NCBI RefSeq assembly: GCF_000725345.1
Contig: NZ_CP008852.1
Span: 2,633,693 to 2,697,692 of the forward strand
Source: Pelosinus sp. UFO1
GTDB lineage: Bacteria > Bacillota > Negativicutes > DSM-13327
DNA length: 64,000 nucleotides
Direction of reading: 5' to 3'
The notes beneath the pieces are model-generated. The model did not search any database. It had not been told where the DNA came from and was given only the letters and a program-made list of their open reading frames with translations. The translations under genes and the position numbers were made by a program. This document shows positions 33,230 to 35,752 of the stretch, piece after piece. Every line of letters begins with the position of its first letter. Positions within the stretch are counted from its first letter, which is position 1.

Positions 33230-33997
33230 TTATTTTTTCAAACCGCCAAATCTTCTCTCTCGCTTCTGATAGTCTATTATAGCCTGAATAAAATGCTCTG
33301 GCTTAAAGTCAGGCCAGTTAATATCAGAAAACCAAAATTCCGCATAAGCTGATTGCCATAATAAAAAATTACTTATCCGATAATCCCCACTTGGACGAAT
33401 AACTAAATCAGGATCAGGTAAATCAGCAGTATATAAATTGTCCCTTATACTTTTCTCAGTAATATCTTGAGGAAGTAATTCACCACTAGCAATTTTCTCA
33501 CCAATTACCCGAACAGAATGTAGGATCTCTGCTCGTCCGCCATAATTAACGGCCAAGTTAAAGACCAGACCCGTATTTTTTTTAGTATACGCCTGTGCTT
33601 CTTCAACCTTTTTCTGTAATTCAGCAGCCAATTCATCCACATTGCCAATAAAGCGAATTTGTACATTTTTCTTATGAAGTTCATCAATTTCACTATCAAG
33701 ATATTCAGAGAATAACCTCATTAGTAAATTTACTTCATCTGCTGGTCTTTTCCAATTTTCAGTAGAAAATGCATAAGTAGTCAATACTTTAAGTTTCATG
33801 TTCACAGCAGTCGTGACAATATCACGCAGACTCTCTACACCAGCTCTATGACCAAGAGTGCGTGGCAATCCCTTTTTCTTTGCCCACCGACCATTACCAT
33901 CCATAATAATTGCAATATGTTGTGGCATATTTTCTAATTTTACTAGGTCATATGTATCAATTTTAATATTTTTTTTATTAAACCAGTTCTTCCACAT
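33230..33997 (-). CDS. uppS: Isoprenyl transferase (undecaprenyl diphosphate synthase)
   Basis: UppS condenses isoprenyl units to make the undecaprenyl carrier used by MraY. The 255-residue protein carries the catalytic IMDGNGRWAKKKGL motif, the GHRAGVES motif, YAFSTENWKRP and the C-terminal DLVIRPSGDYRISNFLLWQ signature. The ATG has GGAGG 7 nt upstream. A hairpin and a ferredoxin pseudogene lie just upstream. Confidence 0.95.
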   Translation of the reverse strand: MWKNWFNKKNIKIDTYDLVKLENMPQHIAIIMDGNGRWAKKKGLPRTLGHRAGVESLRDIVTTAVNMKLKVLTTYAFSTENWKRPADEVNLLMRLFSEYLDSEIDELHKKNVQIRFIGNVDELAAELQKKVEEAQAYTKKNTGLVFNLAVNYGGRAEILHSVRVIGEKIASGELLPQDITEKSIRDNLYTADLPDPDLVIRPSGDYRISNFLLWQSAYAEFWFSDINWPDFKPEHFIQAIIDYQKRERRFGGLKK

Positions 33998-34031
33998 GTT
34001 ATGACCTCCAAATTAATCTGGTAAGAAACTA

Positions 34032-34053
34032 AACCCCCTCTCGCGAGGGGGTT
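34032..34053 (-). terminator. GC-rich hairpin after the ferredoxin pseudogene
   Basis: AACCCCCTC and GAGGGGGTT pair around a short CGC-type loop, and a TTTAGTTTC tract follows on the minus strand. It lies 4 nt after the pseudogene stop codon and 35 bp before uppS, and would have ended the old ferredoxin transcript or now ends the rpsB-frr transcript. Confidence 0.7.
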
Positions 34054-34057
34054 CCAG

Positions 34058-34216
34058 TTATGGAGCCAAAATAGCACCAACAGGGCAAACCGCCGCTCAG
34101 GCACCGAGATCTACACATTTCCTGAAACTGATAGTAAAAACATTCTACTACCAGTATTTCCGTAGTAATTGTTCACAAATACCCGGTCATACTTCATCAT
34201 TAACATGTATAGCCAA
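34058..34216 (-). pseudogene. Decayed 2[4Fe-4S] ferredoxin
   Basis: One continuous frame of 53 codons is collinear with a short bacterial-type ferredoxin but holds four premature stops (TGA, TAG, TAG, TGA). Recognisable parts are AIHVNDE near the start, GICEQ, and KCVDLGA, stop, AAVCPVGAILAP at the end. Five of the eight expected cluster cysteines are lost (for example VDC to VDL, and TGC to TGA in GAC). The length (52 residues) and position of motifs fit a ferredoxin of about 55 residues. Confidence 0.75.
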
Positions 34217-34222
34217 TAATTT

Positions 34223-34426
34223 TTAAGCTTTCCCTTTTACCACTTTATTAGCAGTTACTAAATGATACATATCACCATCAAATCGTTGCCTTATAACATA
34301 AGGGCAACTCTCATCTAAGTTAGCTGCTTGGCGAGTTGGATGTGATATTGTAACTTTATAATTTATCTTTGCTTCATCTAAATGTGTCTTAACCAAAGCA
34401 AAGGGTTTAGCTACTGTATCTATCAT
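34223..34426 (-). CDS. Small conserved-looking protein of unknown function after frr
   Basis: This 67-residue soluble protein (starts MIDTVAKPFALVKTHLDEAK, contains SHPTRQ and CPYVIRQRFDGDMY) is not a family I recognise. The ATG lies 2 nt after the frr stop codon, so it is translated as part of the frr transcript. A longer frame would begin inside frr and is less likely. The regular codon use and position argue that it is real. Confidence 0.65.
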   Translation of the reverse strand: MIDTVAKPFALVKTHLDEAKINYKVTISHPTRQAANLDESCPYVIRQRFDGDMYHLVTANKVVKGKA

Positions 34427-34427
34427 A

Positions 34428-35752
<1,325 letters not shown>

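Follow-up and report, generated by a model that had tools for sequence, protein, structure and literature searches.

What became of the gene between frr and uppS in Pelosinus sp. UFO1, and why is its last stretch so much better kept than the rest? The window, which here means the whole 64,000-nucleotide stretch of DNA that was analysed, comes from a genome assembled as a single contig of 5.1 Mb. Along its minus strand the order is frr, a small ORF, a dead ferredoxin gene, a terminator hairpin and uppS, an essential cell-wall gene (Table 1). The small ORF had been listed as 34223-34459, from an upstream GTG, but the ATG at 34426 is the more likely start. By tblastn its 67-residue product matches 20 of the 30 loci, counting its own, and not the other 10; identity is 92% in the nearest genome and 31-51% elsewhere. 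It found no Pfam match at E 0.001 and no NCBIfam match at E 1. Judged by these matches, it is a conserved protein with no function assigned.

Table 1. Features of the frr-uppS interval and the genes that bound it, in positions of the window.
Feature	Position	Strand	Basis and remarks
frr (ribosome recycling factor)	34428..34988	-	PF01765, E 5.4e-69; upstream neighbour of the small ORF
Small ORF, family not assigned	34223..34426	-	Between frr and the dead ferredoxin; tblastn
5' two thirds of a 2[4Fe-4S] ferredoxin gene, decayed	34106..34216	-	Three stops and several indels from the TTG 'start' at 34216 on; most cysteines gone
Core of the conserved block, GGTGCCTGAGCGGCGGTTTGCCCTGTTGGTGC (one mismatch to GGTGCCTGTGCGGCGGTTTGYCCNGTTGGTGC)	34074..34105	-	Contains the fourth stop; constraint in intact genes, retention in dead loci of four families
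Possible small hairpin, UGG-U-GCUA-UUU-UGGC-U-CCA	34061..34079	-	Single and consensus folds both predict it; overlaps the core end
Former ferredoxin stop codon TAA	34058..34060	-	Reading of the frame
Terminator hairpin GAACCCCCTC-GCGA-GAGGGGGTTT, then an interrupted T tract (AGTTTCTT)	34031..34054	-	Part of the retained block; predicted
uppS (undecaprenyl diphosphate synthase)	33230..33997	-	PF01255, E 1.8e-87; start ~34 nt after the hairpin

An earlier note on this DNA had read the interval as a dead 2[4Fe-4S] ferredoxin in a frame from TTG to TAA, with four internal stops and three cysteines where intact relatives have eight, followed directly by a terminator hairpin and uppS. All of this holds on the minus strand, where positions 34216-34058 translate as LAIHVNDEV, a stop, PGICEQLLRKYW, two stops, NVFTISFRKCVDLGA, a stop, AAVCPVGAILAP and the final stop. 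The remnant is readable over its whole length; with X at the stops it scores 92 against intact neighbours, and the maximum among 500 shuffles is 39. Its 3' part scores 83 (shuffle maximum 54) and its 5' part 33 (shuffle maximum 29, so that 0 of 500 shuffles reach it), remnant and shuffles having been scored on the same few intact references, one of which was the best of 18. Supporting this, intact orthologues occupy the same interval in relatives, and the remnant shares both homology and position with them, although the two CxxCxxCxxxC motifs in one open frame that mark a 2[4Fe-4S] ferredoxin are absent from the window. It descends from the clostridial-type 2[4Fe-4S] ferredoxins (NCBIfam NF058577, FdxA_fam), a model that the intact uppS-linked protein of locus L018 matches at 84.5 bits against a cut-off of 65. 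Unlike the ferredoxins of that family, the window has both cluster motifs broken, and its retained 3' block is not under protein selection. The tie that the note made to IspG finds no support here: the window genome still has 85 matches to the pattern CxxCxxCxxxCP, one of them in a separate 58-residue frame with two Fer4 matches at 2561669-2561821.

Two other statements of the note did not stand. The remnant was said to be almost free of indels; aligning its 159 nt with intact genes of 168 nt takes several gaps over the first ~110 nt, whereas the last ~50 align without any, and that the frame looks open is therefore partly luck. Nor does the gene appear to have been recently lost, as all six genus loci examined (L009-L014) are dead, and so is one locus of the sister genus (L015); two other genus members, G003 and G007, gave no frr match. 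Sequencing error at the stops is unlikely because a second genome (G006, locus L010) carries the same stops together with a further 1-nt deletion. At L011-L014 the 5' half is barely above chance, with 1 to 9 of 200 shuffles reaching its score in a test that compared the real sequence with 18 references and the shuffles with three, and which thus favours the real sequence.

The same note had proposed looking for an intact ferredoxin in the frr-uppS interval of related genomes, and the search bore it out. frr was matched in 57 of 60 relatives' genomes, and of the 30 loci taken first, 18 hold an intact two-motif ferredoxin of 54-56 residues in this gap. Over 54 gaps, an intact two-motif ferredoxin frame is present in 35 and missing from 19, but the 24 later loci were partly chosen by matches to the conserved block, so 35 of 54 is not an unbiased rate (L237 was also fetched and is no frr-uppS locus).

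It is within the dead loci that the two ends of the gene part company: the 5' part has decayed and the 3' part has been retained. Between the two genus clades (L009 and L011) a 48-nt block is identical at 46 of 48 positions; the same pair agrees at 60 of 133 four-fold sites of frr and uppS (0.45) and at 0.2-0.45 in 30-column windows over the 5' part of the dead gene. Windows from ~34119 into the terminator reach 0.87-1.0, and those past the terminator 0.79-0.83. Intact L019, of another family and with a four-fold identity of 0.35 over frr and uppS, differs from the dead gene at two positions in its final 49 nt. The sister-genus locus L015 no longer has a 5' half, and two 1-nt deletions break the frame of its block, which is nevertheless 0.85-0.90 identical to those of L009 and L011. 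L164 (family f7) and L178 (f20) have no ferredoxin 5' half, the sequence up to the block being unrelated, and both keep the terminator and the core with one mismatch; in neither is there an ATG, GTG or TTG in the block frame from the preceding stop to the block. The terminator stem of L178 differs (GAACCCCTC/GAGGGGTTC) yet, by eye, still pairs. L222 (f12), which was detected by covariance model, likewise lacks the 5' half and carries a shorter version of the block with its terminator. Since it was a search for the block that led to L164, L178 and L222, loci that kept it and loci that lost it do not form an unbiased ratio.

Taken as a set, these six dead loci (two genus clades, the sister genus, f7, f20 and f12) are 0.71-0.96 identical over the block in 15 of 15 pairs, and the same pairs have four-fold identities of 0.24-0.45. 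Five of the six have almost the same spacing between core and terminator, and L222 has a shorter one; the distance to uppS varies between loci. A midpoint-rooted FastTree of frr and uppS puts f1, f7, f12 and f20 in four places, with supports of 0.06-0.9 at its deeper nodes. As f12 groups with the ferredoxin-less f10 and f16, its gene loss may be shared with them; four independent ferredoxin losses are likely, not certain.

How widespread is the block? A 26-nt core pattern, allowing up to three mismatches, was found in 41 of 380 genomes of the class (2 of 380 for a reversed-pattern control), with no mismatch in 20 genomes of 12 families and one mismatch in six more. TGTGCGGCGGTTTGYCCNGTTGGTGC with at most one mismatch occurs in 26 of 380 class genomes, every time at frr-uppS, and the core is single-copy in all 26, counting only matches of this quality. 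The covariance model R1 also picks up ordinary ferredoxin coding sequence, and its detections in 189 of 380 genomes are thus no evidence for an element.

The core is not kept everywhere. Nine of the 19 ferredoxin-less gaps are without it (f8, f10, f16, f19, f26), and by eye seven of these nine retain the terminator. Intact genes with a relaxed core occur in f6, f11, f13, f21, f22, f23, f28 and one of two f24 loci, where mismatch counts of 6 or more may fall at motif 1 and are lower bounds only. Because the core is lost or relaxed in such families, the putative element must be dispensable in places. Among the Sporomusa-like f23, seven loci (L020, L190, L191, L223, L233, L235 and L236) combine an intact ferredoxin with a relaxed core of at least 3 mismatches. 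In the Propionispira-like f11 (L231 and L239) the protein is much like that of core-bearing neighbours and six core positions are changed, mostly synonymously, as if the element had been lost and the protein kept. A natural contrast to the window is L234 (genome G322, f26), a decayed ferredoxin with a readable middle in which the 3' core is destroyed.

If the block were retained for something other than the protein, living genes might carry a trace of it at their silent sites, and they do. The constraint analysis took 14 of the 18 intact genes, leaving out L022 and L030 (near-duplicates) and L033 and L034 (nearly identical to each other, their core relaxed). Four-fold pair identity in these genes is 0.328 for frr and 0.334 for uppS, with best 13-codon windows of 0.51 and 0.64, respectively; the best such window of the ferredoxin, which lies over motif 2, reaches 0.77. 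Five of the eight core columns attain 0.73 or more, against 1 of 78 columns of frr and uppS, and 0 of 13 columns do so in the rest of the ferredoxin (one stands at 0.725). Fisher's p is 9e-6, a descriptive value, as are all p-values here, because the limits of the core and the 0.73 threshold were chosen after looking. Four-fold sites at 0.73 outside the ferredoxin are column 139 of the uppS codon alignment and the last frr codon (column 185), which adjoins the start of the small ORF.

Constrained and free positions are interleaved within the core (GCG 1.0, GCG 0.74, GTT 1.0, CCN 0.29, GTT 1.0, GGT 0.85). Counted over 15 of the 18 intact genes, L033 included, its codons are GCC 11 times, TGT 14, GCG 12, GCG 12, GTT 14, GTT 13 and GGT 13. 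Motif 1, which encodes the same peptide CPVGAI as the core, has a four-fold identity of 0.31-0.44. In 13 uppS-linked ferredoxins of other Negativicutes, a control chosen by hand, the core columns reach only 0.24-0.59, and one Ala column outside the core stands at 1.0 (45/45). Among 52 unlinked clostridial ferredoxins many columns lie at 0.37-0.83, because most of these genes are close relatives, and the core-equivalent columns (0.38-0.70) do not stand out. GCGGCGGTTTGC is absent from all 85 CxxCxxCxxxCP matches of the window genome. With these negative controls, the constraint on the core points to an element that overlaps the coding sequence in one group of families, and not to codon preference.

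Other accounts of the silent sites were tried and rejected. Codon preference is ruled out by the unconstrained motif 1 peptide and by the 85 other pattern matches without these codons. Worked through by hand, an overlapping ORF fails because in the other forward frames variation at the core's free Y and N positions would alter residues, and an antisense ORF fails because, in the frame where the Y and N positions are silent, the constrained third positions of GCG and GCG are silent too.

Would such an element be a folded RNA? A strong fold of the core was not found in single or consensus folds, and the fold z-scores of -1.8 to -3.5 refer to whole blocks with the terminator included. Alignment A1 comprised 21 of the 24 prepared blocks (L014, L020 and L030 out) plus L015; in the consensus alignment 1 of 21 predicted block pairs is changed on both sides, which makes a structure plausible, not more. 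In the consensus fold the core pairs with neither terminator arm, and there is no antiterminator pairing. None of the three matches that seven loci gave in Rfam release 15 (E up to 5) reached its gathering score. The hairpin is followed by uppS after a spacer of 26-47 nt in 39 of the 49 gaps parsed, that of the window among them, the exceptions being L188, L230, L238 and f23 (the terminator was not parsed in 5 of the 54 gaps). As the spacer of the window leaves no room for a promoter, transcription from upstream must pass the hairpin to reach uppS. On the minus strand between 33900 and 35100, a search for sigma-70-like sites upstream of the block found none.

The 5' two thirds of this ferredoxin are dead, and I consider it probable that its last ~50 nt with the terminator (34105-34031, minus strand) are a nucleic-acid element, one that already shared the 3' end of the gene when this still made its protein and that would have been kept by selection once it no longer did. 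The active form of this element is quite probably RNA. More tentatively, it may be a 3'-end small RNA that acts in trans. The 3' end of the transcript, roughly 75-95 nt, would then contain the conserved and weakly paired stretch GCGGCGGUUUGCCC, possibly a small hairpin as well, and a terminator of its own; it is the conserved stretch that would pair with other RNAs. What one would look for in such an RNA is here in outline, namely a predicted intrinsic terminator at the 3' end, a weakly paired stretch conserved beyond coding need, and an Hfq-type chaperone, for which the genome has one match (E 2.9e-32). Targets do not stand out from chance: across 11 genomes, a search with 12 nt of the core hit 12 sites outside the locus, compared with 14 for the reversed pattern, and these hits are shared only within the close-relative pairs G000/G006 and G001/G002. 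About 0.6 sites per genome complementary to 12 nt of the core are expected by chance. One exact 12-nt complement, in the window genome at G000:C1:3653285-3653296 (L258) and in its nearest relative G006 at L246, falls by eye in codons 7-10 of an open frame starting MANKKSGQTAFNVAAG.

Slightly less likely than this trans-acting RNA is control in cis, in which block and terminator would form an attenuator or antitermination element that sets read-through from the frr side into uppS and the genes behind it. The arrangement expected of an attenuator, a terminator between the element and a gene without promoter room of its own, is what most parsed gaps contain; the T tract is interrupted, the absence of a sigma-70-like site upstream of the block agrees with it, and in f23, where spacers are 87-155 nt and the best promoter-like sites match 7-9 of 12 positions, 7 of 7 loci have the relaxed core. 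The association is broken in both directions, however. L188 (f32) has a perfect core despite a 10-of-12 promoter-like site past its terminator, and L238 (f9) keeps its core (2 mismatches) with a spacer of 143 nt, whereas f6, f10, f11, f13, f21 and f22 have short spacers and yet a relaxed or absent core; nor does the core pair with the terminator arm in the consensus fold. Sequence alone does not choose between a small RNA in trans and control in cis. I find it improbable that the block is instead bound by a protein as double-stranded DNA. That it is primary sequence and not pairing that is conserved, in a core present once per genome, would suit a binding site, but no dyad symmetry is seen by eye, and the spacing to the terminator kept in five of the six dead loci is something a DNA site would not need.

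To the remaining explanations I give little credence. A plain recent pseudogene, in which the 3' end looks good merely because decay has not got there yet, agrees with the readability of the window remnant, but it is very improbable: across families with a four-fold identity near 0.3 the block is conserved at its synonymous sites, whether the gene is dead or living, L011-L014 pair a random-looking 5' half with an unchanged block, and L234 has decayed in such a way that its middle can be read and its core is gone. Harder still to believe is a surviving half-ferredoxin, the 3' part still encoding a single-cluster peptide (CVECGACAAVCPVGAILAP), even though L011-L014 keep the frame and all four cysteines of motif 2. 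L012 has no ATG, GTG or TTG in that frame, a stop and lost cysteines interrupt it in the window and in L010, it is broken in L015 and without a start in L164 and L178, and the synonymous constraint would be left unexplained. The very high identity over so short a stretch might also bring to mind gene conversion or transfer homogenising the block among families, but both flanks are diverged, each family has its own substitutions, and there is variation at the free third positions (CCN, TGY), so that I attach almost no weight to it.

Returning to the small RNA, its nearest likenesses are CpxQ, SdhX and OppZ, which, as sections of PMC9438474 describe them, share the layout predicted here, in which the short 3' end of a transcript combines an intrinsic terminator with conservation near the stop codon. 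The same sections have 3'-end small RNAs cut or started near stop codons, and the CpxQ region more conserved than the rest of cpxP; they also lead one to expect fewer processed 3'-end small RNAs in Gram-positive bacteria, owing to RNase J1. Compared with CpxQ, SdhX and OppZ as portrayed there, the present candidate, known from sequence, has its conserved stretch inside the former coding region, and its host gene is dead in four families. HK022 put, in the account given in part of PMC9378689, offers a different likeness, that of an RNA of ~70 nt that could affect read-through without a dedicated protein; put has two stem-loops, however, and the core here has no strong fold. Full-text literature searches, judged from their result listings, turned up no recognised frr-uppS ferredoxin element.

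Thus, for the Sporomusa-like Negativicutes, one possibility, a little short of an even bet, is that an undescribed regulatory RNA arose within the last codons of a ferredoxin gene and stayed when its host gene died or was deleted around it in four families. The locus would then be a natural experiment, apparently repeated in several lineages, in which a protein is no longer needed and the nucleic-acid element overlapping it remains, so that two layers of information laid over the same bases are separated. It may show cleanly how the 3' end of an mRNA can give rise to a small RNA or leader element that becomes independent, and it would place an uncharacterised element directly before uppS in a little-studied class of bacteria.
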